This document shows positions 867 through 59,555 of a stretch of 64,000 nucleotides of DNA, in pieces. The stretch's first letter is position 1. The number at the start of each line of letters is the position of its first letter. The stretch is from Forficula auricularia (taxonomy: Eukaryota; Arthropoda; Insecta; Dermaptera; Forficulidae): contig JALMQS010000729.1 in the NCBI GenBank assembly GCA_024734495.1, positions 1,116,001 through 1,180,000 on the forward strand, read 5' to 3'. Position numbers and translations under genes: made by a program. The notes beneath the pieces are model-generated. The model was not told where the DNA came from. It searched no databases and saw only the letters and a list, made by a program, of their open reading frames with translations.

Positions 867-1072
867 TATAAATTAATAAAGTAAAGGGTGTGTAGTTTCA
901 CAGTGAATGAAATAAAACTCAAAGAGGTTTATACAAACTCAATATATTTCGGATTATTAGTCCATCATCAGGAGTTTACAGGTTTTAAGTTTTATTTCAT
1001 TCACTGTGAAACTACACACCCTTTACTTTATTAATTTATATCATGTTTCACCTAAAACCTACACCACTTTCT
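867..1072. mobile_element. Hammerhead-bearing palindromic element, family B
   Basis: Arms of about 50 bp at 872-921 and 981-1037 are inverted copies (they share GTGTGTAGTTTCACAGTG and its complement). The loop holds a minus-strand hammerhead motif. Beyond the right arm is an unpaired tail containing TGTTTCACC and ACCTACACCACTTTC; related tails recur at 12424-12472 and 14134-14160. The flanks are so AT-rich that a target duplication cannot be fixed. Likely a non-autonomous retroelement-type insertion. Confidence 0.6.
935..977 (-). ncRNA. Hammerhead ribozyme-like motif 1
   Basis: Read on the minus strand: stem I AAACTC pairs with GAGTTT after the cleavage base (6 bp). The core is CTGATGA, then one extra T, stem II opening GGA and closing TCC, then GAA, self-complementary stem III ATATAT, and H17 = T. 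This is the copy whose stem I is clearest. The extra base between A9 and stem II departs from the textbook core. Confidence 0.6.
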
Positions 1073-1334
1073 CTAAGTAAAATATATATGATATACTGTT
1101 TTAGAATAAATTTCTAGGAAAGTGAAGGAATTTGTAAAGAAAAGTAAATAAATACCCGGTAAAATGTCTTTTGAAAATGGATTTTCAATATTTGTATCAC
1201 AAAAAAAATGTTAAAATATTGAAGAATAAACTCATTTATATTAAGTCTGATTGATTTTATGAGTAAAGCCAAAATGATTCATATTTTAAATATCATAACT
1301 ACATAATTTATTAATATTTTTGTTTAAATCTAAT

Positions 1335-2131
1335 TTTATTTAGAAAATAGCCCAAAATGATGATTATTTTTTCGGGAATCTTGAAATCAAGTTCCAGATT
1401 CAAAATTTAAAATTAGTACTTTGATTTTTCGAAACCTTCACATTAGATTTTCAGATTTCTTATTTTAGAGAAAAAAAAATTATCAGCCCGAATTGTTCTG
1501 TGTTTTCCAGTATCTACATATAAATTTAAATATTTTGAGGATTTTTTTAATTTATATTGGGCCACGGATTGGACAGACCTGGTTTAAATCGAATGGGATT
1601 AAAGAAGGATAATGAAGAATGATAATTTATTTTTTAAAACGGTCACCGATATAATAATCCCTGACTATCCATTATCTATTGACATGAATGAACATACAAG
1701 TCCTGACAAGTTTTATTCCAAGAGAGAAATTATCAATTAATTGTGATTGTTCTAGAAAACCCCAATTCTTTTCTCCTTGTACTAGAATGATAACTATATA
1801 GAGCTGATTAGTGTCATAACATGTAAATTAATGAAATAATAAATATTTTCGAAAATGAAAATATGAGAAGAAGAAGAGTTTTTAAATATTCGAAACTTTA
1901 TTATTTTTTTTTCTTATATAGTTGAGCTTATAATTTTGCTTCTAGTGAATTTTATTCTTGTAAAAAACTTCACGTATTGTACAAATGTACATTCATTTTT
2001 CGAAAAAGCGAATACATATATCTCTACTTATAAATCTGAGTGTTTTAAGGAAGTTTATGATTTTATGTTGGACCCACTCATTGCAGTGCTGGGCCGCATC
2101 CGGCCCGCGGGCCACGGGGTGGACAGCCCTG
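1335..2131 (-). mobile_element. Non-autonomous hAT-like element, truncated copy
   Basis: Homologous, in inverted orientation, to the better-bounded copy at 37277-38290. It shares the segment near 1600-1690 (GACTATCCATTATCTATTGA) and the block at 1360-1500. The right end reads GGACAGCCCTG, the complement of a CAGGGCTGTCC hAT-like terminus; a second internal terminus-like GGACAGACCTG lies near 1573-1583, mirroring the internal terminus of the other copy. The distal end is missing or diverged. No transposase is seen. Confidence 0.6.
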
Positions 2132-2139
2132 GTCTAATA

Positions 2140-3225
2140 GAAAACACGCTTGCAAATGCATAGGCTCGTAAAGAACAACTAGGTCGCCTAAATAAAATCC
2201 CCATTCGATGGCGCACGGGAATATTTTTTCATTGGCACTTTTGTTTGTCTCAAAATTTTCTTTAGGCACAATCATGTTAAAAAATGTTCTTGGTAAAGAG
2301 ATCCTTTTTATATATACTATAATTAGATATATTATGGAATATATTTTGGACATATATGATTAAATTGGATATACCATGTGTATTATTAAATAAAAATTTT
2401 GAAATGAAATACCAAATCAAGCCCCTTCTATTTTTGGGTTATGCAACCATATTAACAGCACTGGAAATCATATGACTACCCATAGGAAAGATGAAGTTTT
2501 CTCGCCCATAACTCCAGTGATAAATTCATTTATGTTTTGTAATATTTAACAGCCCCCCTCCCCCCACTCATATAAATAATATAAAATAAATATATTGGTT
2601 TAAATTTTGTTTTCTCTATCGCACGAAAAAATCAAGAATATTAGCAGTCTCATTATTGCAACAAATTATACTATTTAGCACATACCATATCTATATTGTA
2701 TCGAATTGTCATTAAAAGAGAAGCAAATGTTTTTTATATAAATACAATGATAATTACTTTCGTATTAGACAGTGATTTTACATGATTTTACAAGTGATTC
2801 ATCATTTTTTTTACATTTGATATTGTTTTTGTGTACATTAGCACATTGCTCTGTGGAAATCATTTATTTTGGAAAAATTGTTATTATCAATTTATATAAT
2901 AAGATTGTAGTTAATGTCTTAAGCTTTATCAACCTATTATTTTTAATATATGAGGCGTTCAATAGCAATAGGGTACCAATCCACAAATCAAATCTCATCT
3001 TCGTTGATAAACCTCTATTATCAAGTAGGTTTTAGGTTTTTGATAAAACTAAATAGACAAAGTGGTTCAAACTTAGTTTTTAAACGCCCTTCTAGATTAC
3101 AGCACAGGTACCACTTTTGCCTTGAACCTTTACCTCTATTTTACTGGATTTTTCATAAAAAAACCAAAAGTGGGATGGTCCAATCTGATTTTGAACGACT
3201 CATATATACTTAACATTTAGGGAAA
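2140..3225. other. AT-rich DNA, no supported gene
   Basis: Two overlapping open frames near 2772-3213 have low-complexity, AT-driven composition, no motif and no splice context that I recognise. Confidence 0.5.
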
Positions 3226-3233
3226 GCGATGTT

Positions 3234-3287
3234 GATTGAAAAGTTTTTGTTTTGCCGAGAGTAGCAGAGTTGTTTCTCTTTGTGAAA
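3234..3287 (+). mobile_element. Minimal family A remnant
   Basis: Carries the family A end (GAAAAGTTTTTGTTTTGCC, then GAGAGTAGCAGAG) and the TCTCTTTGTGAA end, with everything between removed. Imperfect direct repeats GCGATGTTG and GGGGTGTTG flank it. The split target, reading GGTGTTGGTTTATAGTGAAA, belongs to another repeat seen inverted at 12424-12472, so this is an insertion into an older repeat. Confidence 0.55.
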
Positions 3288-3321
3288 GGGGTGTTGGTTT
3301 ATAGTGAAACATATTAAACAC

Positions 3322-3890
3322 ATGAGTTTTTTGACGGGTTATAGTGGTGTTTCACAAAGAGGAAATAAAAATTAAAAAAATTAAAAAAAATTTTTAATTA
3401 TATTTTGGAGAATTTTTTATCAATCTCTATACATATTTCGGGTTACAAGCCCTTCTTCAGGAGGTTTAACAAAAGACAGGGAGATTTCTTAATTGGTTTC
3501 TTGAAAAATAGTGTCGAATTCTGTCGAGTGTAATTCCTGGGTCAAAGATTGATGCACATATTTCAGATGGAGAGCAATACATCTCGTCTGGAATACCACT
3601 ACTTCAAGTCGGCTTTGATCCAAGAAGTTTTGGCCTGGAAGATAGCTTTGTGGGCGTTTGGAGAGGTAGATTTAACTTTTATTTGAATGTATTTGGGGAA
3701 AAAAATGTCTTAATGCATCAGGAGAGAAACCATATATGACTGCTGAAACGTTCTTTTGTTAAAGCTTCTGAAGAAGGGCTCGTTACCCGAAATATGTATA
3801 GAGATAAATAAAAATCTCCAAAATATAATTTTTTTAATTTTTATTTCCTCTTTGTGAAGCAGCACTATAAGCCGTCAAAAAACTCCTGTG
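3322..3890. mobile_element. Hammerhead-bearing fold-back element, family C
   Basis: Inverted arms at about 3330-3472 and 3768-3890 share TTTTTTGACGG, CACAAAGAGGAAATAAAAATT and the region CATATTTCGGGTTAC. Each arm has a hammerhead-like core: minus strand 3424-3460 and plus strand 3768-3800, both CTGAAGA, extra A, GGG...CCC, GAA, then ATATGTAT. Read strictly, the base after ATAT is G, which would block cleavage; an 8-nt stem III with a central G-U pair would instead place A at H17. The 295-bp loop contains an exon-like segment. Confidence 0.55.
3567..3665 (+). other. Possible captured exon, 33 codons
   Basis: The 99-bp stretch is clearly less AT-rich than its surroundings. It is preceded by an acceptor-like CACATATTTCAG and followed by a donor-like GAG|GTAGAT. 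It is open and exactly 33 codons long from an ATG (begins MESNTSRLEYHYFKSA, ends LWAFGE), so it would be a phase 0-0 exon. A second frame is also open. I do not recognise the peptide. It sits in the loop of a hammerhead fold-back, so transduced host sequence or chance are both possible. Confidence 0.25.
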
Positions 3891-5040: not shown

Positions 5041-5055
5041 AACTTATATTTTATC

Positions 5056-5185
5056 AAATTAAAAGTTTCTTTTTGCCGAGAGTAGCAGAATTTTTATAAA
5101 CAATAAAATAGTGTGTCTTCTGCTCGAAAAATTAAAAAATATATTTTTCCAGCAGGTGACACACTCTTGTATAGTCTCCTTTAAT
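5056..5185 (+). mobile_element. Family A element, short copy without hammerhead
   Basis: 130 bp between exact 12-bp direct repeats TTATATTTTATC (5044-5055 and 5186-5197). It begins with the family A end (TTTTTGCCGAGAGTAGCAGA), then inverted arms built on GTGTGTCTTCTGCT and its complement close to each other. The central part that in other copies carries the ribozyme-like core is absent. The clean target duplication shows that even the short form is an inserted unit. Confidence 0.7.
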
Positions 5186-5199
5186 TTATATTTTATCGA

Positions 5200-6960
5200 A
5201 TTTATTTCATTATTTTTTTCTTTAAGAACAGCAAGTACGTTAGTTAAAGAATTCAATCTGAAAAAACTATTTTATCTAAATTCATGAATGTTTGTTTTTA
5301 TTGTAAATTTCCTAACAATGCTCACACGTAAAGTTTTATTGTAGAATTCTTATTACATAGAAGCAAATATGTACAATATTAAATTAGATGATAAATATGT
5401 TATATTATTTTCATAAACTGTGGTAAGAAAGGTATGTTTTTAATGCCGTTTACTATTATTTTATTATTCTTTGATATCATTTTTTGTTTGAGTGAAGAAT
5501 TAAGTTGTTGTCGCACTGCAGGGTTAAATAAATATTTTTCAAACTGACGAAAAGTTTGACTTTTCGATCGGGAATGAGAGAAAAATATTTAAAATAAGCA
5601 GAATATAAAATCCCCAATTTATTCCTTATAAACAATATTAATTGTGAAGAGAAATATTCGGATAAAATCGCGCCTATTGAAATTTACTTGATAAAAAATT
5701 TAAATTTTAGTTTAATATATATATACTTTTAACCCAGATAGCACAATCGATCTAGAAGATGTCTTATCTAGTTTTTATTGTTTATAAGATGTATTTAAGA
5801 TGTCTATAAGATATCGTAGTTTCTAGAAAAGATCTTTTAGAACGAGGCATTTTATTTGTAGCGAAAATTATTAGAAACAAAAATAAAAATAAACTACACT
5901 GAATATCTTGACAAGTATTGGAAAATGAAGGGTTTTTTAAGGGGGGAGGGGGAGGAATTTCGATACATGAAAATAATATTGGGGGTTATAATTTTTTTTT
6001 AAGATTCAAATTAATAGTTTCTCGTTGGTATTTTTAAAAATATTTTCAGATAAAATAATGTAGTATGAGAGAAAGAAGGGGTTGACGATATTGGACAACT
6101 TGTTAATCACAATGATTATTGCAAACCAGATTTTCAATGTTTTTATAAGATTTAGATTTCCAAATAATTGAACTAAACTGTTGATACAGTCACAGCAGCC
6201 ATTTGTAAAATAATTCCATATCTGTAATTATTAAAATAGGAGACGGATTGTTGATATTTTCTTACGCTATTCAAAATAGATAACTATTCTGATTTCAAAA
6301 ATTTGAATAGATATATTTTTTACATAAGAGAAAATTGTAATATTTATTAATAACTTAAAGATAATGTTGGAAGAAATTATATTTTAAAATATTCTTAATG
6401 TTTTCTTGATGTTTTATAATGTTGATATTTTTTTCCTCTCGAATATATATTTCACCATATACTTAAACAAAATAAAAATTCTTAAAAAATATTTTTGAAA
6501 AATTAAGTAAAAATTTTATATTTTACAGATTACTAAATAAATTTAAGAAAAATATACTGCTAATAAATTAAATTTTAATAAAATATATAGCTAAATATTT
6601 TTACGAAGACAAAAATATATAATTATATGATGAGAAGTATAATAAAGTTTATTTCTAAATATAAAATCTAAATTTGTAATCGTAAGTACTTTAATTGTTT
6701 AGTAATCAAAGAAATAGCCGATTGTTGATTTCCACTATTTCTAATTTCGAAAACAACAAATATTGTTTAAAAACATACAATTGTAAACAAATTTATAATG
6801 TGCCTTTCTTAAGTATAGATGAATTGCACTAGTCGCGGTTTCTGTTCAATTTCTTTGTTCGAGATTAAAACAGTGAAGTTGAAGGGTTTCCCTCGCAATC
6901 AATTAATATTCGAGTGTTAATGTATCGAATAGGATCAATAGTCTAATTCAATATTCTCGA
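5200..6960. other. AT-rich DNA, no gene seen
   Basis: No open frame with protein-like composition. A short G-rich run (GGGGGGAGGGGGAGG) occurs near 5941-5955; otherwise unremarkable. Confidence 0.5.
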
Positions 6961-7625: not shown

Positions 7626-7812
7626 TCTTGTGGATGTGAGTTCAATAGTAATAAAAGAAATGATATGATTTGAAAAATAGCATCATTTTGGTTAAAAAAA
7701 AATTATAAATTATAATTGAATGTAATGGAAGGCAGACCAGGGGTAGCGAGGAAAAAAATTAACACATCAAATAAGGTTTAATTTATTGGAGTCCTTCCTC
7801 CTTTTTCAAACC

Positions 7813-7845
7813 GACGTTTCGGAGGATTCTTCCTTCCTTCTTCAG
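7813..7845 (-). ncRNA. Hammerhead ribozyme-like motif 2 (family D, left arm)
   Basis: Minus strand: CTGAAGA, extra A, stem II GGA...TCC, GAA, stem III ACGT, H17 = C, then GGTTT, which can pair with AAACC upstream (one bulged T) as stem I. Confidence 0.55.
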
Positions 7846-8111
7846 AGGTTTACAAGGGTCAATGAAGTGAAACAAATGAAGTGCCTCCTTCCTCTCTCCA
7901 CAACAGTGTTCAAAACCTTCTTCTTCTTTGAACAAAAGCATAGAAAAAACAATTTTTTTCCTACTTTTCTTAATTAGATGGGGGGAGGGAAGGAGGAAAA
8001 AAATTGTTTTTCTATGCTTTCTGCTAAGGAAAGAAAAGGAAGTTTCAAACACTGCTGTGGAGAGAGAAGGAGAGCATTTATTTGTTTCCTTCATTGACTC
8101 CCTTGAAAACC

Positions 8112-8150
8112 CTGAGGAAGAAGAAGAGGCGGGGAATCCTCCGAAACGTC
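8112..8150 (+). ncRNA. Hammerhead ribozyme-like motif 3 (family D, right arm)
   Basis: Plus strand: CTGAGGA, extra A, a long imperfect stem II closing on CCTCC, GAA, ACGT, H17 = C. It is the mirror partner of the left-arm motif, with N7 changed from A to G. Confidence 0.5.
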
Positions 8151-8319
8151 GTTTTGAAAGGAAGGGAGGAAGGAATCCAATAAATACACCTTAATTGATA
8201 TGTGTTAATTTTTTCTTTCCTCACTGCCCCTGAGCTACTTCCATTACATTCAATTAAATGTTCTACCAGTCCGTCTCTCTCCAGAGAAAATTTCGTTGCA
8301 AAAAAATTATAAATTATCA

Positions 8320-14280: not shown

Positions 14281-14608
14281 AAATCATTTAGAGGGTGGGG
14301 TAGGGTCAAAAAATACAAGTCTTGTACAAAACTCAACCAAATTTTATATACCTACATAATCAGTGAACCCCCAGAAGACTAAAAGTGCAAAAACTAAATA
14401 AAACTATTCAATATTTGGTTCGGTTTGGTCCAAGGGCCTAGGTTTTATTTTTTTACCCCCCCCCCCTCCCCCATAATTTTTTTTCCCAAAAAATATAATA
14501 TCTTTTCGTTTTATAAGATCATGTTATAGTATATTTCCTTTTTCTTGTTTTTTTAGTTTGAAAATCTTATAGATTTAATTTTATGAAAGATATTAATTTG
14601 CCGATGGT

Positions 14609-14945
14609 AATAGATTCAAATTTACTAGAAATTATAGATCAAAGATGGTGTCATCTATTACTCCTGATGGAGTGGAATATTTTTAATTATATGTCAGAGG
14701 GGTTGTTTTTCACCCCCTCGGGAATCGAACCCGAGTGCCAGTAACAGCAATCCGGACCACCTGGCTCACCTGCGGGATACGAACCTCTCTGACATATGCA
14801 AACGCGTAAAATTGCATTGCTGTTACTGGCACTCGGGTTCGATTCCCGAGGGGTGAAAAAACAACCCCTCTGACATATAATTAAAAATATTCCACTCCAT
14901 CGGAATTAATAGATGACACCATCTTTGATCTATGAATTTCTAGAT
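14609..14945. mobile_element. tRNA-derived SINE arranged as an inverted repeat
   Basis: Arms 14609-14745 and 14813-14945 are inverted copies (GATCAAAGATGGTGTCATCT, GTCAGAGGGGTTGTTTTT, CGGGTTCGATTCCCG). Arms extend past the SINE ends into shared flank, so the symmetry includes target sequence. Only the left copy keeps the complete tRNA-like head; the right copy is cut in the middle. It sits in repeat Y, whose second copy lacks it. Confidence 0.7.
14700..14790 (-). repeat. tRNA-like head of the SINE with A and B boxes
   Basis: Minus strand: A box TGAGCCAGGTGG (14757-14768) and perfect B box GGTTCGATTCC (14721-14731), spaced as in RNA polymerase III promoters, with a CTCGG/CCGAG T-arm. It does not fold as a complete tRNA at the acceptor end, so it is a SINE head, not a tRNA gene. 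Decayed relatives occur near 52670-52740 and 60820-60870 (ATGTCAGAAG.GTTATATTCA). Confidence 0.65.
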
Positions 14946-20420: not shown

Positions 20421-20423
20421 TTT

Positions 20424-20971
20424 AATTTTATAAATTGAAGGGTTTGTTCAGTCACATAAAATAAATAAATAGAGTAATTTTAGACAATTAACATTATTTA
20501 TTAGATAGATTTACTAAACAGATTCGGTCACCCCTGGTAGACCATCTTCAGTAGTACTGAAAATTGAAACATTTTTTTATATATACAACAACAAAATAAA
20601 AACCATAAAATTTCACATTCATACATACAATTTCGTTCAAGATTTGGAATTTGTCACTCTGCATTCAATTCAATGATAAGTGTTTATAAATTATTTATCT
20701 ATTGAAAAAGTTGAAATATTCATGTTAATAAATTGAGAATGAGTTCTATGTATATCCAAATCTTGAACGAAATTGTATGTATGAATGTGAAATTTTATGG
20801 TTTATATAATTGTATATATTAAAAAATGTTTCAATTTTCAGTACTACTGAAGATGGTCTACCAGGGGTGACCGAAACTGTTAAGTAAATCTAACTAATAA
20901 ATAATGTTAATTGTCTAAAATTACTCTATTTATTTATTTTATGTGACTGACCCTTTAATTTATAAAATTAA
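20424..20971. mobile_element. Hammerhead-bearing palindrome, family E
   Basis: About 550 bp with arms running from TTTAATTTTATAAATT to its complement. They contain TCAGTCACATAAAATAAATA, GACAATTAACATTATTTATT and the block GGTCACCCCTGGTAGACCAT, around a centre near 20700. The right arm has CTGAAGA, extra T, stem II GGTC/GACC, GAA, ACTGT (20847-20880, plus strand). The left arm has the same, with the base after GAA mutated. Stem III is no longer self-complementary, so both motifs look decayed. Confidence 0.7.
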
Positions 20972-21236
20972 AATTTGTATTTCCACATTGTGTGGAAAAA
21001 CACTATTTATAATTATAATATATTTTCATTCATTTAAAAATTGTATTCTGTGTCTATATTGTGAGACTAGGGACAAGTGTCTAAGCAGACTCGTGATGTC
21101 TCACATAGTTTTTACTTTATCCAATGCAAAGCATGGGTAAAGTATTGTAATCGCTTTCGGGGCAAGCGTGGCTTCAAAGGGTCCTCAGGTAAAGACTACG
21201 GAACCCATGGACTCAATTAAAGTCACAAATTGTAGT

Positions 21237-21833: not shown

Positions 21834-22985
21834 CTGAAGACAGAGAAATCGATTTTAAACCAAAAATAGCGATTGATTCTCATCTAGTTCTTGAGGAATA
21901 ATCATTCTATATTGGATTTTTGACGTTTCGGTTTTTATTAGTAACCATTGCTGAAGACATAGAGAAATCGACTTTAAACCAAAAATAGCGATTGATTCTC
22001 ATCTAGTACTTGAGGAATAATAATTCTATATTGGATTTTTGACGTTTCGGTTTTTATTAGTAACCATTGCTGAAGACATAGAGAAATCGACTTAAAATCA
22101 AAAATAGCGATTGATTCTCATCTAATACTTGAGGAATAATCATTCTATATTGGATTTTTGACGTTTCGGTTTTTATTAGTAACCATTGCTGAAGACATAG
22201 AGAAATCGACTTTAAACCAAAAATAGCGATTGATTCTCATCTAGTACTTGAGGAATAATCATTCTATATTGGATTTTTGACGTTTCGGTTTTTATTGGTA
22301 ACCATTGCTGAAGACATAGAGGAATCGACTTAAAATCAAAAATAGCGATTGATTCTCATCTAATACTTGAGGAATAACAATTCTACATTAGGTTTTTGAC
22401 GTTTCGATTATTATTGGTAACCATTGCTGAAGACATGGAGGAATCGACTTAAAATCAAAAATAACGATCGATTCTTATCTAATACTAGAGGAATAACCTT
22501 ATTGAATTCCATTTTTGATGTTTTGACTATTAATGGAAACCTCTACTGAAAATGTAGAAGAATCGACTTAAAATCAAAAAGACTAAATTCTTTTTTGGTA
22601 AACAACTCAAGCTTGAGTTGTTTGCCATAAAGAATTAGTCTTTTTGATTTTAAGTCGACTCTTCTACATTTTCAGTAGAGGCCTCCATTAATAGTCAAAA
22701 CATCAAAAATGGAATTCAACAAGGTTATTCCTCTAGTATTAGATAAGAATCGATCGTTATTTTTGATTTTAAGTCGATTCCTCCATGTCCTCAGCAATGG
22801 TCACCAATAATAATCGAAACGTCAAAAACCCAATGTAGAATTGTTATTCCTCAAGTATTAGATGAGAATCGATGGCTATTTTTGATTTTAAGTCGATTCC
22901 TCTATGTCTTCAGCAATGGTTACCAATAAAACCGAAACGTCAAAAATCCAATGTAGAATGGTTATTCCTCGACTCTTAAATGAGA
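21834..22985. repeat. 119-bp tandem repeat folded into a palindrome
   Basis: Seven units start with CTGAAGACAT-type sequence at 21834, 21951, 22070, 22189, 22308, 22427 and 22546: a period of exactly 119 bp after the first. Each holds GACGTTTCGGTTTTTATTAG, GAAATCGACTT and GATTGATTCTCATCTA. The array then turns back on itself at a perfect dyad CAACTCAAGCTTGAGTTG (centre 22611), and about three inverted units follow to 22985. Units near the centre are the most diverged from the outer consensus, and each matches its mirror unit better than its tandem neighbour. Confidence 0.85.
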
Positions 22986-24170: not shown

Positions 24171-24299
24171 ATTAGTAAAGAGTATTTGTAAAGGAAATAA
24201 AAAGATGATAAGAAAAGTAAAGAATAGAAATCGGAACACCAATTAAAGTTCTCAAACTTGGAAATATTTTTCAAAATATTCAGTCTCACAGAGCCCTTA

Positions 24300-26839: not shown

Positions 26840-27125
26840 ACCTGATAGCATCCAAAACAAAAATACTCACCTAGACGTTTCGGCTAATATTAAAAAATGA
26901 TAAAAAATCTTCGAGGAGAGATATCCTCGGCTTTCAAGTGCTATTACATATAAATATATATTAAATTAAAAATCTAACATATTTTTAAATGTAATTTTAT
27001 ATGTGTTCTCAGGGAAAAAAATTTAATACCTATTCTCATTGTGACTGAAGAAGACAAAATAAAATGACGAAACGTTACAATGATCATTTTTGTTTTTCTT
27101 TACTTTGGCTGCTATCGCGTTTTCC
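26840..27125. mobile_element. Decayed hammerhead-bearing inverted repeat
   Basis: Outer arms GATAGCATCCAAAACAAAAAT and its diverged complement (ATTTTTGTTTTTCTTTACTTTGGCTGCTATC) enclose GACGTTTCGGC on the left and, on the right at 27045-27076, CTGAAGA, extra A, GAC...GAC, GAA, ACGT, T. Stem II has a mismatch at its second pair, so the motif is probably inactive. The interior is AT-rich and not symmetric. Confidence 0.5.
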
Positions 27126-28065: not shown

Positions 28066-28170
28066 TAATGGAAGGCAATCCAGAAATAAATAAAAGAGTA
28101 TTGGAAGGTTTTATATTTAAAGTTTTTGAACCGACGTTTTGAAGGATCTTCCTTCCTTCTTCAGGGTTCA
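28066..28170 (+). mobile_element. Family D fragment with mutated hammerhead core
   Basis: Starts TTAATGGAAGGCAATCCAGA. It contains on the minus strand (28132-28164) CTGAAGA, extra A, a GGAAGG/CCTTC stem, then CAAAACGT where GAAACGT is expected, so the essential G12 is lost. Confidence 0.5.
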
Positions 28171-32229: not shown

Positions 32230-32815
32230 TAAAATAACTCTCTGATATATATTCACTTAATATATTAATTAGAAAAATATTTTTGAAATATTTCACATTG
32301 GATTGGAAATTTGAGTGAAAATTCAAAAGGAGAACTTTTATAGGGAAACCTTGAAACTCACCGAGCTGACAAATGATTATGTGGAAATATAAATAAAAGC
32401 TTAGATTGAGAAATAGGGCAAAAGAAAACAAAGGAAAAGGAGAAAGTCGAGTTTGAGAAAATAAAGAAGAGAGGTGGAATTAGGGATTGAATGAGACGAG
32501 CGGCAACTACTGCTAACACAAAAGAGCGAGGGAGGCTCAAGGGAGATTTTGTCGTCGACCAGATTGACCAATGAGGAATCCCGCGGGAGGAAACTGCACA
32601 GGAACAGGAGCAGGAAGAGGGAAAGGACGAATGCCAAAGGAACAACAAATGCTGTGAACTTTAAATCCTATCCACTAACTTACATTAATGAAATCTTATC
32701 GATTCTTTTCAGAAGTACCTTAAACGAAAAGAGAGTCATCAATCAAATTAGAAGAATAGAAGAGTAAATAAGATTATTTAAAAGAATTTTGCTGGCTTGG
32801 TGTGTACTGGAAATA
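32230..32815. other. No confident gene; short GC-richer stretch
   Basis: 32490-32660 is less AT-rich. On the minus strand it reads as a hydrophobic segment (LAFVLSLFLLLFLCSFLPRD), which could resemble a signal peptide, but it lacks an ATG and the plus strand reads as arginine-rich, as expected of simple AGG/CCT-rich DNA. Confidence 0.3.
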
Positions 32816-32897
32816 TTAATTTTTTTATTGTTAAGGATAAATAAATTGAATTTGCTTCTTTCCAGTAATTTATTTTGTTATTCAAATGGTTAATCCA

Positions 32898-32933
32898 AAT
32901 ATTTCGAGAGCGTTCTCAGCATCTCTTCCTCAG
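32898..32933 (-). ncRNA. Hammerhead ribozyme-like motif (family F, left arm)
   Basis: Minus strand: CTGAGGA, extra A, stem II GAGA/TCTC, GAA, ATAT, H17 = T. Stem I CCA/TGG forms across the ends. Confidence 0.6.
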
Positions 32934-33074
32934 TGGAAGCTGTGGGACCACACAATAGGCAAGTCAGTGAGTTATTATAATTACAGGTGTCAAAAGGGGG
33001 TGGGTGAGTACTTTTTGACACCTGTAATTATAATAACTCACTGACTTGCCTATTGTGTGGTCCCACAGTTTCCA

Positions 33075-33110
33075 CTGAGGAAGAGATGCTGAGAACGCTC
33101 TCGAAATATT
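33075..33110 (+). ncRNA. Hammerhead ribozyme-like motif (family F, right arm)
   Basis: Plus strand: TCCA, CTGAGGA, extra A, GAGA...TCTC, GAA, ATAT, T, TGGA. Stem I TCCA/TGGA has 4 bp. Same sequence as the left-arm motif. Confidence 0.6.
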
Positions 33111-34091
33111 TGGATTAACCATTTGAATAACAAAATAAATTACTGGAAAGAAGCAAATTCAATTTATTTATCCTTAACAATAAAAAAAAAGATTATTTAA
33201 TACCTTAATTTTTTCTTTTAATGAAATAGATGCACCTGGAAGATCAGCAATTATAGCTTTTGATACATCGCACTTCCGGAGAAACAATGAATAAATTAGG
33301 AAAAGCTAACTAAAGTAAGAAAAACTAAAAAAGGAGAATTCACTAGCTCTACATCTAAATTCAAACAATCATTCGTTCCCAGAAGGTACAGGAATTAGAT
33401 TAATTAAACAAGAAAGAAATCAAAAATTAATAAGCGCCATCGCATCTTTAGAAATTTTAAAGTAATATAACAAGAATTCTGACCTCTGTTTAAATAACTG
33501 ATATCCGATTACCGCAAATGAAGCAACATACACTGCTGAAGCAACATAATCCGATATGTTAGTTGGGCTGTATGCTTCATTAGTAGAGCATGTGTTTGGA
33601 ACTAAAGTGTCACAAAAGTAATTATGACAAAAATTAATAATATTATATTTGAGCGAAACAAAGTCTTAAATGTACTTTTATTGTACACAATATTGGAACA
33701 ACCTGTACATTATTGGATCAACAAAGACGCAAAATTATGACAAATTGTGAATCTCTAGGACAACAATGACATAATTGAGATGATTTACCATCTTAAGCCT
33801 ACCTAACAGGGGCTTATTGAAAAATTTTGATAAAAAGCCAACCAAAGATAATAGTTATAGAATATAAGAATCCACAACACATTTATGGTAAATTCTCAAC
33901 AAATTGTATTTTATTGCCGTCGTTTTGAGGTTTTAGAAATTTATTCAAATTTAAAGTCGTTTTCCCAACATTTTTAAAATTTGCACTTTGGTCGTTATTC
34001 CTCCTGAGATGCGACATGTGGATTGTTTTTGAAGGATTGAAAATCCTATGACCAAAGTTTTCAGCTTTTTTTAGAAAATAAAATAATGAAT

Positions 34092-34496
34092 AATGAAGGC
34101 AGGTCGAAGGACAGTATTTGAGATTGTTCTGTTGGAATAACTTGTTTTACCAGTGTAATGATTCTTAATGTAAAACGTCTGCTGGAAATAGATTTTACGT
34201 GTTTTTGTGACTTGGGTGAGTAGTATATAATCCTCATTTCCACCCTTTAAAAATTTATTATAAATGTTAAAACAAAAAATTAAAACATTCAATGATCTTT
34301 TCCAGTTGACGTGCACTGATGAAGAGCAGCGGTATAGCGCTCGAAACGTTGTAAAAATATCGATTACGTCTGCCCAAAATAAAGTAACAAATAGAAGTTG
34401 ACTTTTATTTCAACTTTTTATTTTCCCCTTACTGGCCCCTTAGCCAATTCAATTTAAATAAAATAGGGCCACCAAACACGGTTCTTTTTTTAAAAT
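34092..34496 (+). mobile_element. Single-unit hammerhead element, family J
   Basis: 405 bp between 9-bp direct repeats ATAATGAAT (34083-34091 and 34497-34505), splitting an arm of fold-back H; the other arm gives the uninterrupted sequence. Unlike the other families it is not a palindrome and holds a single forward hammerhead motif about 225 bp from its start. A GACTTTTATTTCAACTTTTT segment follows. It may be a monomeric form of the same kind of element. Confidence 0.65.
34316..34350 (+). ncRNA. Hammerhead ribozyme-like motif (family J)
   Basis: Plus strand: CTGATGA, extra A, perfect stem II GAGC/GCTC with a 10-nt loop, GAA, stem III ACGT, H17 = T. Stem I is weak here. Confidence 0.6.
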
Positions 34497-38820: not shown

Positions 38821-38903
38821 AACATGTACTTTTATTTTAGGCTAAAAATAAAATGAATGAGTCTTCTGTTTTTTAAATAAAATAATTTTTAATTAATTCT
38901 AGA

Positions 38904-38938
38904 GACTATAGTTTCGAAGGCATTGCCTTCATCATCAG
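38904..38938 (-). ncRNA. Hammerhead ribozyme-like motif (family K, left arm)
   Basis: Minus strand: CTGATGA, extra T, perfect 6-bp stem II GAAGGC/GCCTTC with a 3-nt loop, GAA, 8-nt self-complementary stem III ACTATAGT, H17 = C, then TCTAGA, pairing with TAGA upstream as stem I. Confidence 0.65.
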
Positions 38939-39147
38939 TCTATCACAAATATTTCAAATTAGTTACAAATTAAGATTTATACATTGAAAATTTTGAAAAA
39001 TATATAATGTCTTTTTCTTCATGTTTCCTCTTGGGAGATTACATTCTAATCTCCAAGAGGAAACATGAAGAAAAGACATTATATATTTTTCAAAATTTTC
39101 AACGTATAAATCTTAATTTGTAACTAATTTGAAATATTTGTCATAGA

Positions 39148-39182
39148 CTGATGATGAAGGCAATGCCTTCGAAACTATAGTC
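39148..39182 (+). ncRNA. Hammerhead ribozyme-like motif (family K, right arm)
   Basis: Plus strand, identical core to the left arm: TAGA, CTGATGA, T, GAAGGC/GCCTTC, GAA, ACTATAGT, C, TCTA. All core positions are intact apart from the extra base after A9. Confidence 0.65.
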
Positions 39183-39309
39183 TCTAGAATTAATTAAAAA
39201 TTATTTTATTTAAAAAACAGAAGACTCTCTCATTTTATTTTTAACCTAAAATAAAAACAATTCTGTTACCATCGACAGTGAAATCTTTTTATTCAACATG
39301 TACTTTTAA

Positions 39310-39640: not shown

Positions 39641-39654
39641 AAAGAATATGCTTC

Positions 39655-40084
39655 GGTTAATTGAAAAGTTTTTGTTTTGCCGAGAGTAGCAGAGTTGTTG
39701 ATTCACAAAGAGAAACAAAGAGGTTGTCCTCTGCTTGATGCAAATAAACATACACACATATATATCGAGATGATATATCTGTATATATATTATTTATTTG
39801 TTTGAGACTATAGTTTCGAAGACTTGGTCTTCATCATCAGTCTTTCTTCAGAGTTCCTAGCCGACCAGCAGTGACGAAGGAACACCAAGTTTTCAATATC
39901 CATATGATATTGACTCCATGAAAAACATTTATAATTGAAGAAAGACTGATGATGAAGACCAAGTCTTCAAAACTATAGTCTCAAACAAATAAATAATATA
40001 TATGTATACAGATATATCATCTCGATATATATGTGTGTATGTTTATTTGCATCAGCAGAGGACAACCTCTTTGTTTCTCTTTGT
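39655..40084. mobile_element. Family A hammerhead palindrome, complete copy
   Basis: 430 bp between 11-bp repeats GAATATGCTTC (39644-39654 and 40085-40095). The left terminus is the family A end (TTGCCGAGAGTAGCAGAGTT). Arms 39709-39850 and 39940-40084 pair through CACAAAGAGAAACAAAGAGG, TTGTCCTCTGCTTGATGC, ATATATATCGAGATGATATA and the hammerhead cores. The loop (about 39851-39939) includes CGACCAGCAGTGACGAAGG. This copy shows the full plan of family A: end tail, inverted arms, two opposed motifs, loop. Confidence 0.8.
39806..39840 (-). ncRNA. Hammerhead ribozyme-like motif (family A, left arm)
   Basis: Minus strand: CTGATGA, extra T, perfect stem II GAAGAC/GTCTTC, GAA, ACTATAGT, H17 = C. Its right-arm partner (39946-39980, plus strand) has AAA in place of GAA and is probably dead. 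Confidence 0.6.
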
Positions 40085-40099
40085 GAATATGCTTCACGA

Positions 40100-43210: not shown

Positions 43211-43245
43211 CTGAGGATGAGGGCCAAGCCTTCGAAACTATAGTC
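43211..43245 (+). ncRNA. Hammerhead ribozyme-like motif (family A, 43-kb copy)
   Basis: Plus strand: CTGAGGA, extra T, stem II GAGGGC/GCCTTC (one G-U pair), GAA, ACTATAGT, H17 = C. Confidence 0.6.
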
Positions 43246-48970: not shown

Positions 48971-48984
48971 CTAATTAATTTTTA

Positions 48985-49142
48985 TTAAATTGATAGTTTT
49001 TGTGCCGAGAATAGCAGAATTTTTATATATTGAAGGGGACAATAAAAGAATGTGTCTTCTGCTGGAATTATAAATTTTAACTCGTTATAAATAAATAAAT
49101 TTATAATTCCAGCAGAAGACACACTCTTTTATTGTCTCCTTC
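48985..49142 (+). mobile_element. Family A element, short copy
   Basis: 158 bp between exact 12-bp repeats AATTAATTTTTA (48973-48984 and 49143-49154). Left end TTTTTGTGCCGAGAATAGCA, then arms GACAATAAAAGAATGTGTCT / AGACACACTCTTTTATTGTC meeting at ACTCGTTATAAAT. The hammerhead-bearing centre is deleted precisely at the arm tips. Confidence 0.75.
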
Positions 49143-49789: not shown

Positions 49790-50440
49790 GTTTTTTTTTT
49801 TTTTTTTTTTATAATGATATTGATGAGAGAAGAGGATACACCAAAATGGTGCATCCCCTAAAGACCTGGGTTGGCTCCTCCAACGTGAAAAGAAGAAGAA
49901 GAAGAGGGGATTTTATGGGCTGGGTAGGAGTTAAAGGTATCTGTGGATGCGGGTCTTAAACAGCTGAAGGTAATAAGTTGAGGGGAAAACGGTGGCTGGA
50001 AGTATGTTCCAGTTTCTTGAGGTCATAGGGATAAAAAGTTGGTTGGGCTTTTATCCAATTTGAGAGCGAAGGGGTGCTGAGCTTTCGAAAACCGCGTGTT
50101 TCTAGCAAAGAGGGCTCTAGGGGGGATATTTTGATTTCAGCCCTAGTGAACAGACACCATGATAGTATCTGTAGTACCTACAGGGAAAGGGCAGAAACGG
50201 CTCTACGGTGAGCCAGGGAGTCGAGTGAGTTAGTTAAGGCCGGGTCTCCTATTAGTTTAATTGCTCGCTTCTGAATTGCATCCAGTCTGGCAAGAGAATG
50301 CTTGGAGGTCCCCCTCCACAGATGAGAGTCATATTCGAGACAGGGACGAATTTGAGCCCTATACAGAGTAAGGAGTTGACTGGGAGTATAGTAGCGTTTA
50401 GACCTAAATAGGAGACCAAGCTTGCTAAACAAAAATAACT
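49790..50440 (-). pseudogene. CR1/Jockey-like LINE 3' end with poly(A)
   Basis: Minus strand: LGLLFRSKRYYTPSQLLTLY, RAQIRPCLEYDSHLWRGTSK, IQKRAIKLIGDPALTNSLDS and LAHRRAVSALSL match the C-terminal RT region of the copy at 23360-23914. The rest of the C-terminus and the 3' UTR (ACGTTGGAGGAGCCAACCC and GATGCACCATTTTGGTGTAT) follow, and the T run at 49791-49810 is the poly(A) tail read backwards. It is 5'-truncated near 50440; no RT catalytic residues are present. Confidence 0.85.
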
Positions 50441-50509
50441 GTAATAATATTAATTTTGAAGAAATTAAGTGAAGGGAAAATAATACGGAGGAGCGTGCCA
50501 AGTAATAAA

Positions 50510-51055
50510 ATGTTTAGTAATTAAAGAGAAAGTAGGTGATATTAAATAATTTCCAAAACTCGCCCTTAAGATCATGTGAACGGTCATCTACTACGGATCA
50601 CGAATCCTTCGTTTTTGACTTGGAGAGAATCTGAAAATAAAAAATAAAAATATTATAATTCGTTTAGAATAAGTCGTTTACAACATTGGCGTTTGGGTCG
50701 CCCAGAGACGTTGAGCAAATATTTTACTACATTATTTTTCAATAGGTTTAAAAAATATTTAATTTATTCAATGCTTTTAAAAGGAAAAATAATAATAAAA
50801 ACAAGTACCAACTTTTTAATTATTTTCCTTAAAGTACATTTGTTTATCTTAATAGATAAAAATTTATTTAATCATTGTAAAATTGAAGACAATTTCTTAA
50901 GTATTACCTAAAAAAGGCAATAAGGCAATGAAAAAATGTGGGTTTTTTTTGGATAGCGACATGATCATATTTCTCAAATTTGGGTGGCAGCTTAAAAAGA
51001 TTATGGGTTGTTTACAATATGAGTCATTAAATGTTAATCCTAGTTAAGTATTTGA
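50510..51055. other. No gene seen
   Basis: AT-rich flank of the satellite. Confidence 0.4.
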
Positions 51056-51059
51056 AAAA

Positions 51060-52285
51060 GTATTAGAAACCGAAATATTAAAATATAATGGAATATAATC
51101 GAATATAATGGAATATTTTGAAATATAATGTAATATAATTTAATATGATCTAATAAAATGGAATATAATGAAATATAATATAATGTATAATTAAAGTTTT
51201 GAGCATCTTTTTTTGAAAATAGTTGGTAGTTTTTTCAAAAAATCAGCTCGGGTTCAGATTAACCAAGATGTATTTTAAAAGAGACAGAATTCAATCAATC
51301 TTTTTCGGACAAATTCTAAGATTTTAGTAGAAATATTATTAAATTGGGATATCAGAGGGGATGAATCCCCTTTTAAAATCTTTTAAAATATAATATAATG
51401 TAATGGAATATAATAGAATATATTGGAATATAATTTAATATGATGTAATAAAATGCAATATAATGGAATATAATGAAATATATGTAATATAATGGAATAT
51501 AAAGGAATATATTGTAATATAATGTAATATAATCGAATATATATTGGAATATAATGGAATATAAAGAAATATAATGGAATATAATGAAATATAATGGAAT
51601 ATAATAGAATATAATTTAATATGATGTAATATAATGGAATATAATGAAATATAATTTAATATTATGAAATAAAATGAAATATATTGGAATATAATTAAAT
51701 ATAATGTAATATAAAGGAATATAATGTAATATAATTTAATATGATGTAATAAAATGGAATATAATTGAGTATAATCGAATATAATGGAATATAATCGAAT
51801 ATAATGAAATATAATGAAATATAATGTAATAAAATGGAATATAATGGAATATAATAAAATATAATGGAATATGATGGAATATAAAGGAATATAATGAAAT
51901 ATAATTTAATATTATGAAATAAAATGAAATATATTGGAATATAATTAAATATAATGTAATATAATGGAATACAATGGAATATAATTGAATATAATGGAAT
52001 ATAATTTAATATGATGTAATAAAATGCAATTTAATGGAATATAATGAAATATATGTAATATAATGAAATATAATGAAATATAATGGAGCACGATGGAATA
52101 TAATGGAATATAATTTAATATGATGTAATTAAATGGAATATAATGGAAAATAATGAAATATAATTTAATATAATAGAATATAATGGAATATGATGAAATA
52201 TAATGGAATATAATTGAATATAATCGAATATAATGGAATATAATTTAATATGATGCAATAAAATGGAATATAAAGGAATTGTGGA
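51060..52285. repeat. 10-bp satellite array, GGAATATAAT
   Basis: About 100 imperfect copies of the decamer GGAATATAAT. Variants have AAAT, TTAAT, GTAAT or CGAAT at the variable positions, and an interruption lies at about 51190-51385. Higher-order repetition is visible: the string around TTTAATATGATGTAATAAAA recurs several times at multiples of the unit. Open frames across it are by-products. Confidence 0.9.
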
Positions 52286-52760
52286 TTTTGGCCTGGCGGA
52301 GTCACATGGGCTCAAGGGTCATGGTGGGGAGTGAACTTTGGACTTTGCAATAGAGAGTTCTAGTTATAGTACAAGCACAAAATAGTGAAAAGTGAAATCC
52401 TAGAAGTATCGAATTTAAATATATCTTCCAATTCGAGTGAACAGGTGGGTGCTTGTTTACGAACAAGTTTGAGCCTGTTTTCGAACCTCTCCATATATAC
52501 AATTAGTCTCTAACTAAATACATGTATTAAAAGAAATTCTCTTTTAAGATATCTTATACGATTGTTTTGTCTACTTATATTCTAATCAATCATTGTAAAA
52601 TAAAAACTAATTAGAATAAAAATGAAGAGATTATTTATTACTTAATCCGAGCTGTTATGCATGATTTTATTACATGTCAGAAGAGTTATATTCATCCTCT
52701 CGGAAATGTAATATCATCAATACCACCTCGGAATCAAGATAATCTCATGATTTTTTTCCA
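52270..52760 (+). repeat. Dispersed repeat V, copy 2
   Basis: Begins at the satellite edge with GATTTTGGCCTGG and CACATGGGCTCAAGGG, then AATCCTAGAAGTATCGAATT. It ends with GAGCTGTTATGCATGATTTT and a decayed SINE-like ACATGTCAGAAG...CTCTCGGAAAT. Confidence 0.65.
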
Positions 52761-56535: not shown

Positions 56536-56578
56536 ATTGGACAATAAATAAAAAAGAGAGTTTTTATTAAATGGGCTA

Positions 56579-56610
56579 GACGTTTCGTCAATTTATTTCG
56601 ACTTCCTCAG
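56579..56610 (-). ncRNA. Hammerhead ribozyme-like motif (family G, left arm)
   Basis: Minus strand: CTGAGGA, extra A, stem II GTCG/TGAC, GAA, ACGT, H17 = C. Confidence 0.6.
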
Positions 56611-56636
56611 TGGCCCAATCTATCACTCTTTGTCGA

Positions 56637-56668
56637 CTGAGGAAGTAGAAATAAATCGACGAAACGTC
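56637..56668 (+). ncRNA. Hammerhead ribozyme-like motif (family G, right arm)
   Basis: Plus strand: CTGAGGA, extra A, GTAG...CGAC (one mismatch), GAA, ACGT, H17 = C. Confidence 0.55.
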
Positions 56669-56699
56669 TGGCTTATTTAATAAAAAACTCTTTTTATGC

Positions 56700-56850
56700 A
56701 ATTGGATGTTGATGAAAGCAGTCCACGGTGGTTGTAAAAAATAAGACTATAGAGGTTTTATTATTTTACATTTATTTGTTAAACCGACGTTTCGGAGATT
56801 TATTCTCTCCTTCTTCAGGGTCTATATAATTGAGGGGAAGACGAACATTA
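56700..56850 (+). mobile_element. Family D-like arm with intact hammerhead motif
   Basis: One arm only: GAAAGCAGTCCACGG, TTTTATTATTTTACATTTAT, AAACCGACGTTTCGG, then TTCTTCAGGGTC. It resembles the left arms at 7714 and 28066. No opposing arm was found within the next 500 bp. Confidence 0.5.
56786..56818 (-). ncRNA. Hammerhead ribozyme-like motif (family D-like, 56.8 kb)
   Basis: Minus strand: GACC, CTGAAGA, extra A, perfect stem II GGAG/CTCC, GAA, ACGT, H17 = C, then GGTTT. Stem I GACC/GGTT has 3 Watson-Crick pairs and one wobble. Confidence 0.65.
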
Positions 56851-57860: not shown

Positions 57861-57879
57861 TATTACATATTTCAGTATT

Positions 57880-58074
57880 AAAGGTAACAATAAAAGAGTG
57901 TCTTCTACTGGAAAAATAAGATTTTTTAAATTTATTTATAACGAAACTATAGTTTCGAGGGCTTTGCCCTCTTCATCAGTCCAATACAATTGGTTCACAG
58001 GAATTGATGTGTGAAATAGTGTCTTCTTTAATTTATAAATTCTGGTATTCTCGGCAAAAAGAAACTTTCAATTT
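57880..58074 (-). mobile_element. Family A element with one hammerhead arm
   Basis: 195 bp between 12-bp repeats TATTTCAGTATT (57868-57879 and 58075-58086). Minus orientation: the right end is the complement of the family A end (TTCTGGTATTCTCGGCAAAA). Outer arms GTAACAATAAAAGAGTGTCT / AGTGTCTTCTTTAATTT are shortened. The right arm has lost its hammerhead copy, so only one opposed motif remains. Confidence 0.75.
57945..57979 (-). ncRNA. Hammerhead ribozyme-like motif (family A, 58 kb)
   Basis: Minus strand: CTGATGA, extra A, perfect 6-bp stem II GAGGGC/GCCCTC with AAA loop, GAA, ACTATAGT, H17 = T. Confidence 0.65.
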
Positions 58075-58089
58075 TATTTCAGTATTCAT

Positions 58090-58970
58090 TATTCAATAAG
58101 TCTCCAAATTCAGTGGCATTGTTTATTAATTTAGATAAATAATCCCTAATATTTTTAATAAGTCGATCAAACCATCTTGATATTAGTTAAAATTTAAAAT
58201 TCTTTCTCATGAAGAAAAAATCTTCGAAGACAGGATCCTTTTCATTTAATTTATTGATTTTTCAATATCCCTAATGCCTCATTTCCAATCTTTAATTCAA
58301 TTCATGATTTTCTCTTTATTCTGAGTTTCTTTATCGAGGGATGAACGTATTAATTTGAACATGAATTATATAAAACGATGAATAGGCGTTTGAAATCATT
58401 CCTCAAGTGCTTATTAGAAATGTTGCTTTTTTAATCATATCTTCTGATTAGCTCCATTTTAGAAAAATCTATGACTTAAACAAGATCCCTCCTATCAATT
58501 ACCAAGAGTATATAGATTCGATCCACTAGATTGTCTGGACTGTGTAAGCAGCTACATTTTAAATGATTTAGAAAAAAGTTTTCTCGTAATTCATAATGGT
58601 AAAAAATGTCGATTTTTACAGCAGCTGGTGCTAATGGCCTGGTGATTAATCACCACGCTGTTAATTACCCCGTCTCACACCGAGAAAATATGGATGCACT
58701 TGATCATGGATGAACGCATTCAAATATGAACGAATGCAAAAATTGCATCTGTCCTAGGAGATGGCGATTTAATTGCCACTCAATGAAATAGAAAATTAAA
58801 AAGAAAAAAAATATTTTTCAAAGACATAAATGATATATCGTTTTTTATATCGGACAATAAGATATGTATTTATTACCTAAATATTGATTGATTAATCAGG
58901 AGGAAATTTTTCTAAAGAATCAATTGAATTTATAATAAAACCAAGTGGATAATAAATATCGTTTAATAAT
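58090..58970. other. No gene seen
   Basis: 58620-58790 is somewhat less AT-rich (GGCCTGGTGATTAATCACCA hairpin near 58640) but not assignable. Confidence 0.35.
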
Positions 58971-59311
58971 GAATGGAAGTTGGAAAAATAAATAAATTGT
59001 ATTTATTTATTGGATGAAATAATAAAAAGTGAACTTAAATATATGAATGCGCTAGATAAGTGTGAATTAAAATACATACAAGGTTAAATTTTACATAAAT
59101 AAATAGATACTGAGCGGTCACTAGAGCAACAACAATAAACAATAATAACGACATAACTTGGTTGTAATTTTGAACTTTAGTAGCGGGGGGTCGATTTAGG
59201 CTAGGTGGTACCGTGTCAACCTGCGCATTTTCCCAGATAAAAATAACCAAAAACCCCCGATACTCCACTTAATAATCAATAGAATAAAATTTACCACATG
59301 ATTACTGTATA

Positions 59312-59555
59312 TTGAAGAAGACAATAAAAGAGTGTGTCTTCTGTTGGAATTATAAATTTTATTTATAACGAGACGATAGTTTCGAGGGCTTTGCCTATTT
59401 CTGTAAATCAATTGTAATAGACTGATGAAGAGGGCAAATCCCTCGAAACTATAGTCTCGTTATAAATAAAATTTATAATTCCAGCAGAAGACACACTCTT
59501 TATTGTCTCCTTCAATATAAAAATTCTGCTACCCTCGGCACAAAAACTTTCAATT
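59312..59555 (-). mobile_element. Family A element nested in the SINE-like insertion
   Basis: Flanked by 13-bp repeats TGATTACTGTATA (59299-59311 and 59556-59568). Arms GACAATAAAAGAGTGTGTCT, TGGAATTATAAATTTTATTT and complements. The right end is the complement of the family A end (CTGCTACCCTCGGCACAAAA). The left-arm hammerhead copy has lost its CTGATGA part; the right-arm copy is intact. Confidence 0.8.
59422..59456 (+). ncRNA. Hammerhead ribozyme-like motif (family A, 59 kb)
   Basis: Plus strand: CTGATGA, extra A, stem II GAGGG/CCCTC, GAA, ACTATAGT, H17 = C. Confidence 0.65.

Follow-up and report, generated by a model that had tools for sequence, protein, structure and literature searches.

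What are the small hammerhead-like motifs that recur in palindromes along a 64,000-nucleotide stretch of the genome of the earwig Forficula auricularia (GCA_024734495.1, contig JALMQS010000729.1, positions 1,116,001 to 1,180,000; this whole stretch is called the window, and coordinates are those of the window), and how did they come to lie there in opposed pairs? A first-pass annotation, made from the letters alone, had listed 15 of them and pointed to similar ribozymes in Penelope-like elements (PLEs) and retrozymes. We find that they are very probably the hammerheads of endonuclease-bearing (EN+) PLEs, and that the palindromes are head-to-head pairs of the pseudo-long terminal repeats (pLTRs) of such elements.

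All 15 listed sites are in the sequence, and a descriptor allowing an inserted base confirms that the hammerhead motifs are real: 13 of the 15 pass its strict form (CTGANGA, zero to two inserted bases, an uninterrupted stem II of 3 bp or more, GAA, and a self-complementary stem III starting with A), and the other two, worn copies at 8112-8150 and 56637-56668, fail because of a mismatch within stem II. The same rule adds two unlisted sites, at 3432 and 3768, for a strict total of 15 motifs with palindromic stem III, against 0.04-0.06 per window simulated under Markov models of order 1, 2 and 3 (50 windows each); the scan also returned a weaker hammerhead-like pair, 20522/20847, whose stem III is not clear. 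The conserved hammerhead core, CUGANGA ... GAAA, is present, and H17 is a base other than G in 13 of the 15 strict motifs. When G-U pairs are tolerated in stem III, a choice that favours non-G, this holds for all 15 in the window and for 13 of 14 in an 80-kb genome sample.

Genome-wide, the pattern CTGANGAHGN{8,24}CGAAAC has 95,402 exact matches in 1.06 Gb, against 48 for the reversed pattern, and the systematic 80-kb sample (20 stretches of 4 kb) holds 13 motifs where 0.06 are expected, all 13 with one extra base in the core. In the classic hammerhead stem II directly follows A9; here it does not. Exactly one base is inserted in 122 of 122 strict motifs (35 distinct, from 114 sequence sources, overlapping loci being counted repeatedly), and bare-pattern counts over the same sources, with the same repeated counting, gave 161 motifs with one inserted base, one with none and five with two. 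Patterns of matched information content with one and with zero extra bases returned 14 and 0 matches, respectively, in the 80-kb sample and 19 and 0 in the window. The extra base, which the pattern allows to be C but not G, is A in 71, T in 29 and C in none of the first 100 genome places listed, which are not a random draw.

That one base follows A9 before a complementary stem II, as the first-pass annotation had it, is borne out by a test of pairing registers. Among 41 candidates chosen by core and self-complementary stem III, with stem II not required, the first four stem II cells pair in 86% of cases with one base skipped, and in 43-47% with zero, two or three skipped; in the genome list the corresponding figures are 87% for the one-base register and 49-53% for the others (56 distinct sequences). 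The covariation of stem II, previously judged by eye, likewise withstands counting. With three of the 41 candidates dropped as judged false, 92 of 108 cells in 27 distinct stems are paired against a shuffled mean of 62.6, and in the genome list, collected by pattern alone, 75 of 96 cells are paired against 40.8 (32 distinct stems, first 100 places listed); none of 2000 shuffles reaches the observed value in either set, although these figures are not probabilities, because the shuffles ignore the kinship of the copies. Several Watson-Crick pair types occur at three of the four stem II positions. Stem II thus varies on both sides while the unpaired core is fixed, which fits selection on RNA structure.

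Stem III is a loopless palindrome of only 4-8 nt in the strict window motifs, so that it cannot form within a monomer and needs two copies, either on one tandem transcript or on separate transcripts. The stems ACGT, ACTATAGT and ATATAT support the earlier suggestion that a tiny self-complementary stem III implies a dimer, and the active form would accordingly be dimeric. The motifs fall into several families, which a covariance model (R1) built from six window motifs of one family does not unite. In the window R1 recovers its six, together with 39940-39988 (66.7 bits) and the truncated 59364-59413 (25 bits); three motifs of other families (56786, 28125 and 34316) score just 13.5-15 bits (E 0.2-0.54), and the remaining families, e.g., 32898/33075, 56579, 7813 and 941, are missed.

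Kinship with PLEs is shown by linkage to their open reading frames (ORFs). The palindrome arm 38830-39015 recurs in the genome with at least 52 matches (40 of 94 candidates scored). We fetched 30 of these 52 loci, 29 of them distinct; 18 of the 29 are two-arm palindromes, and in some others the arm lies directly behind an ORF that ends in a GIY-YIG domain. The arm directly follows an ORF in loci L003, L018 and L020, and the ORFs of L018 and L020 match GIY-YIG. Conversely, a one-insert hammerhead lies downstream on the same strand in 14 of 20 GIY-YIG loci (fetched from 150 scored matches, and including some near-identical pairs); six lack one, among them L035 and L036, which by eye look like another GIY-YIG gene. 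All six further regions chosen for long ORFs carry a hammerhead. In the head-to-tail array L088, which has a period of 2,909 bp, two open ORFs of 858 aa and units 99.6% identical, same-strand hammerheads stand at 990, 3899 and 6808. At its 5' side (L088:7993-9000) the array closes with a head-to-head junction, formed by 1 kb of sequence that repeats part of the units in inverted orientation at 100% identity.

The 864-aa ORF of L089 has at least 51 homologues at E<=1e-20 among the candidates sharing most words, the only ones scored; RVT_1 is found in 45 of the 51, PF26215 in 45 and a called GIY-YIG in 4, and those named come from Parnassius, Diabrotica and Rotaria. The L041 ORF matches RVT_1 at 27.1 bits, just under the cut-off of 29.6, and then GIY-YIG at 31.5 bits, over the cut-off of 22.6, in a domain library without PF26215; a search of solved structures with this ORF found nothing. 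The Forficula elements thus have a reverse transcriptase (RT) followed by GIY-YIG in their ORF, tandem or inverted pLTRs, and a tail on one arm with a target duplication; EN+ PLEs are described in PMC11167929 as encoding RT and then GIY-YIG in one ORF and as having repeated pLTRs.

The anatomy of the palindromes was measured in one pLTR family at 66 loci, which the script divided into 42 two-arm pairs, 19 single arms and five loci set aside (L018, L019, L059 and L068, which have the same upstream ORF as L003 in different places, and L023, with three arms). L005 was left out as the same element as L001, and the pair of L003 was removed by hand together with its false second arm, which matches another family (77%); the counts below thus refer to 41 pairs and 102 arms. 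An arm was counted if it extended beyond u120 in the coordinates of the family, so that L052 and L069 each lose a second arm of opposite orientation. In 41 of 41 pairs the arms lie head to head and their ribozymes point outward, and a tail of about 40 nt is present on exactly one arm in 41 of 41; the tail-less arm ends at u181-188 in 32 of them (range 170-192). The 5' ends of the arms are independent of each other: 45 of the 102 start at u-38 to u-28, a single boundary within the final codons of the PLE ORF, 15 start further upstream in the ORF and 42 are truncated, and arms enter the ORF in L004, L013, L025 and L080. Flanking duplications of at least 10 bp were found in 35 of the 41 pairs, against 6 of 420 random placements; they vary in length, mostly 10-17 bp and up to 20 bp. 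In the genome list (first 100 places, all families), neighbours of the same family lying no more than 1 kb apart point outward in 21 of 22 cases; of the 28 neighbours of any family at that distance, 23 point outward, 3 point inward and 2 share one direction.

The copies of a pair had been described as facing each other, which these data do not support: the left copy is on the minus strand and the right copy on the plus strand, so that they point outward, with the predicted cut sites on the outer side. The attendant claim that one transcript would carry a motif and its complement stands for read-through of a whole element, but fails for an outward transcript starting within an arm, which would carry the active-sense motif only.

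The outward order, the one-arm tail and the duplications fit a single staggered cut, each side of which primed a reverse transcription of its own. Under such a model, the PLE protein would cut its target in staggered fashion, and both target ends would prime reverse transcription on pLTR RNA at two adjoining internal start sites about 40 nt apart; each cDNA would extend toward the 5' end of the RNA, and the two cDNAs, one per start site, would join head to head where they meet, which would leave the ribozymes pointing outward, the target duplicated and a single arm with a tail. Copies consisting of pLTRs only would derive from RNA that starts at the pLTR boundary. For inverted pLTR structures in Adineta, self-priming was proposed by the authors who described them (PMC3846280); we prefer two separate cDNAs because these more easily give arms that differ at the 3' end and are unequal at the 5' end. 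We infer cleavage activity, bilateral priming and a transcription start at the 5' boundary of the pLTR, and we consider it highly likely that the motifs are minimal type I hammerheads in the pLTRs of EN+ PLEs and that the pLTR-only palindromes are non-autonomous. In tandem copies the pLTR ribozymes have the same direction and lie about 2.9 kb apart, so one transcript can join two of them.

A one-sided tail together with a duplication is found in five window elements (7713, 32820, 38813, 39701 and 59308). The elements and motifs of the window are as follows, palindromes being given without strand:

38835..39294: palindromic head-to-head PLE pLTR pair of the ACTATAGT family, with its tail at about 39257-39294 on the right arm; arms 38830-39015 and 39071-39256 97% complementary; flanking duplication AACATGTACTTTTA at 38821 and 39295.
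38904..38938, minus: hammerhead of its left arm; stem II 6 bp, stem III ACTATAGT, H17 C; R1 74.8 bits (R1 training member).
39148..39182, plus: hammerhead of its right arm, by descriptor; R1 74 bits (R1 training member).
39655..40088: head-to-head pLTR pair, the left arm having the tail; inverted repeat 39701-40088; 11-bp flanking duplication GAATATGCTTC at 39644 and 40085.
39806..39840, minus: hammerhead by descriptor and R1; core sequence the same as in the tandem full-length PLE array L088.
39940..39988, plus: partner hammerhead, A in place of G12, predicted to be inactive; R1 66.7 bits.
43211..43245, plus: hammerhead by descriptor and R1, of the same family as 39806, in another pLTR remnant.
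59308..59555: head-to-head pLTR pair with a 5' truncation of the left arm and a right-hand tail; exact 13-bp flanking duplication TGATTACTGTATA at 59299 and 59556.
59422..59456, plus: hammerhead of this element, by descriptor and R1.
59364..59413, minus: its truncated partner; R1 25 bits.
57945..57979, minus: hammerhead by descriptor and R1, in the single pLTR remnant 57876-58004.
32782..33188: head-to-head pLTR pair of the ATAT family; tail on the left, 32782-32819; arms 99% complementary; flanking duplication with 1 mismatch in 16 at 32766 and 33185.
32898..32933, minus: hammerhead of its left arm, by descriptor.
33075..33110, plus: hammerhead of its right arm, by descriptor.
7713..8299: head-to-head pLTR pair of the ACGT family; tail on the right; arms of 78% identity; A+T-rich 22-nt duplication with 1 mismatch at 7696 and 8300.
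7813..7845, minus: hammerhead of its left arm, by descriptor.
8112..8150, plus: worn hammerhead of its right arm; stem II mismatch, strict descriptor failed.
56551..56695: short head-to-head pair; no clear target duplication.
56579..56610, minus: hammerhead of its left arm, by descriptor.
56637..56668, plus: hammerhead of its right arm; one stem II mismatch, strict descriptor failed.
56786..56818, minus: solo hammerhead of the ACGT family, by descriptor; stem I 6 bp.
863..1044: head-to-head pair with a ribozyme kept in one arm only, at the palindrome centre; no clear target duplication.
941..971, minus: its hammerhead, by descriptor; stem I 9 bp, stem II 3 bp, stem III ATATAT; family with 4 occurrences in the 80-kb genome sample.
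34316..34350, plus: solo hammerhead without stem I pairing, by descriptor.
3428..3460, minus: hammerhead unlisted in the first-pass annotation; stem III ATATGTAT and H17 A if G-U is allowed, H17 G under the strict rule.
3768..3800, plus: its opposed partner, with the same alternatives for stem III (ATATGTAT) and H17.
20421..20972: palindrome with hammerhead-like cores at 20522-20551 (minus) and 20847-20876 (plus), stem III not clear; a related core at L112:3759 has a stem III when G-U is tolerated.

Partnerships within the window needed correction: 39806 pairs with 39943, within 39940-39988, and not with 43211. The truncated copy at 59364-59413 is the partner of 59422, and scans for inverted repeats, sequence and model matches in the window found no intact partner for 57945, 43211, 56786 or 34316. 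The hairpin-tip position of the hammerhead in 863-1044 was considered as a new architecture and rejected: on visual inspection its inner stem I is the ordinary one and its right arm a shorter copy of the pLTR.

Decayed hammerhead copies of ACGT families lie at 27044-27075 (plus) and 28125-28170 (minus), the second scoring 14 bits with R1. By eye, 5050-5200 and 48980-49140 are further 5'-truncated head-to-head pLTR pairs with the tail motif and without a ribozyme, and the right arm of the latter starts at or beside the predicted cut site. A palindrome at 14584-14938 contains tRNA-like stretches (GGTTCGATTCCCG) and a left extension resembling the PLE tail (TTTGCCGATGGTAATAGAT), and is flanked by a 17-nt repeat with one mismatch; the descriptor finds no hammerhead in it, and it is possibly a tRNA-derived palindrome mobilised by PLEs. 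Units of about 119 bp in tandem at 21842-22931 end in a near-perfect 297-bp inverted repeat, with no relation to hammerheads seen. At 51040-52318 there is a long simple tandem repeat, open in several frames, around which the region 48-52 kb has an unusual GC skew of 0.24. Fragments at 23360-24352 and 50178-50513 read by eye like the ORF of a non-LTR retrotransposon, the first without a Pfam match, and four window ORFs gave no Pfam match.

Several observations weigh against our reading. Rfam's hammerhead models, proposed earlier as a check, gave no match in the window at gathering score or at E<=10, and RF00163 was silent on the whole genome as well, although that search also gave no signal in its controls. 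Rfam's present models thus miss these window motifs; miRNA matches within the palindromes, e.g., mir-4716 at 39001-39085 on both strands, were all under the gathering score. Stem I is short, 2-4 bp in 11 of the 15 strict window motifs, and 34316 has no stem I pairing. The anatomy counts come from a single pLTR family, and one of the 22 same-family neighbours within 1 kb points inward. The search for flanking duplications in that family allowed 12 bases of slack at each end, and several of its duplications consist of A+T only. In the window, 200 random placements put the 95th percentile at 11 and the 99th at 23; with scores of 11-19, none of the five duplications convinces by itself, and for the elements at 863, 3311, 20421 and 56551 a duplication was sought and none seen.

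The starts of the arms are a further point of this kind. If cleavage preceded reverse transcription, many arms would be expected to begin just behind H17; however, 3 of 102 arms (3 of the 42 truncated ones) begin within 2 nt of the predicted cut site, close to the figure of about 1.25 that an even spread of the truncated arms over u-27 to u140 would give. The impression of a cleavage footprint given by individual loci (L017 u114, L073 u113, L066 u111, window fragment 49081) was lost on this counting. In the family examined, inserted copies therefore seem to come mostly from uncleaved RNA, which agrees with the Anolis PLE, for which the in vitro results of PMC11167929 give unprocessed RNA as the main insertion substrate. 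The scatter of arm starts does not show that the ribozyme is inactive.

The scarcity of cleavage footprints at the junctions does favour another explanation, namely that the motif is a conserved DNA or protein-binding site (e.g., for recognition by the endonuclease or RT) whose RNA no longer cleaves, and hammerhead mutants are reported to leave in vitro insertion unaffected (PMC11167929). Changes on both sides of stem II around a fixed unpaired core instead fit selection on RNA structure, and cleavage, aided by protein, has been published for the hammerhead of the Anolis PLE (PMC11167929); we regard this explanation as improbable. The palindromes might also belong to a viroid-like or retrozyme-like class, forming rod-shaped RNA with a ribozyme in each polarity and spreading through circular RNA. 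A transcript of either of the two best elements, with arms 97-99% complementary, would indeed be a rod with a motif per strand (the arms of other window elements are at 78-87%), and retrozymes with dimeric type I hammerheads exist (PMC7229834). Retrozymes, however, are described as direct tandem repeats, whereas these elements pair their arms head to head and have a PLE tail and flanking duplications; their arms also have independent 5' ends, some of which enter the PLE ORF. A direct arrangement occurs in none of the 41 pairs, direct tandems of pLTRs only not having been systematically sought; same-direction cases seen are two same-strand arm pieces in L023 (1 of 66 loci) and 2 of the 28 close neighbours. 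We give this class only a slim chance.

Their inverted-repeat shape and flanking duplications would equally suit foldback or MITE-like (miniature inverted-repeat transposable element) DNA transposons that captured a hammerhead sequence as terminal repeat. Against such an origin, the duplications vary in length, the arms are truncated at variable internal points, the two ends are asymmetric in that one alone has a tail, and the arms match PLE pLTRs beside GIY-YIG ORFs, which makes it very improbable indeed. Chance or a low-complexity artefact, to which an A+T-rich and repeat-rich window and the silence of Rfam might point, has a vanishingly small probability in view of the 95,402 matches against 48 for the reversed pattern genome-wide and the 15 motifs against about 0.05 in the window.

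If the motifs are PLE hammerheads, as we hold, the near-invariant extra base poses a direct question to ribozyme chemistry, and some 95,000 exact-core copies in many covarying families make one genome a large natural mutant series. The junction statistics provide a genomic test of when cleavage occurs relative to reverse transcription, and in the tested family cleavage mostly does not come first. A more speculative possibility, which we think rather unlikely, is that the PLE hammerheads of this genome are a lineage apart: an unpaired A or T following A9 would be a fixed part of their active core, and they would have been amplified chiefly as pLTR-only palindromes, a non-autonomous class of its own. 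On this view each palindrome would fire two identical outward ribozyme transcripts that would dimerise in trans, with the cut serving to regulate or destroy the template RNA rather than to prepare it.

PLE hammerheads with a tiny stem III are already published, and they are very abundant in this genome; the primary papers on the minimal type I form are reportedly those of Cervera and De la Pena from 2014 and of Luense and colleagues from 2017. Published accounts state that PLEs carry minimal type I hammerheads without most of helix III (PMC6155905, PMC7761336), and that these may act as dimers, their role being "still a mystery" (PMC7761336). The Adineta vaga Penelope resembles the Forficula elements in its inverted, head-to-head pLTRs and palindromes, in a tail (31 bp) that one of the inverted pLTRs carries, and in having target duplications, of 8-10 bp (PMC3846280); the present genome differs in its roughly 95,000 motifs, many of them in pLTR-only palindromes, and in its longer duplications, mostly 10-17 bp. 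The Anolis PLE PAc likewise has a hammerhead in its pLTR region, both target strands are cut and extended, and reverse transcription starts at two adjacent internal sites whose spacing equals the tail (PMC11167929). PAc represents the biochemistry of one element, whereas here the insertion junctions of one family fit the same model.

The plus-strand hammerhead of chrysanthemum chlorotic mottle viroid (CChMVd) has tertiary loop contacts and is active as a monomer, in both of which it would differ from the motifs described here, and De la Pena and Flores are said to have placed its extra A, in 2001, between A9 and G10.1. An "extra A" is marked in the core of this hammerhead in a figure legend (PMC3705267), a likeness to our motifs found, however, in a viroid. 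Metazoan non-LTR retrozymes share type I hammerheads, some of them active as dimers, but are described as direct tandem repeats giving circular RNA and not as head-to-head palindromes (PMC7229834). Known alignments allow one or two inserted bases between CUGAnGA and its stems (PMC10085705). Our search of the literature, with most subscription journals outside its scope, found no statement on an invariant extra base in PLE hammerheads, and what may be new is this base, together with the abundance of the motifs and the statistics on the single tail. As described in PMC7761336 and PMC6155905, published PLE hammerheads are like those of Forficula in their location in pLTRs, their reduced stem III, the expected dimer and the association with PLE ORFs; the Forficula motifs may differ from them in the extra A or T that follows A9 in nearly every copy examined.

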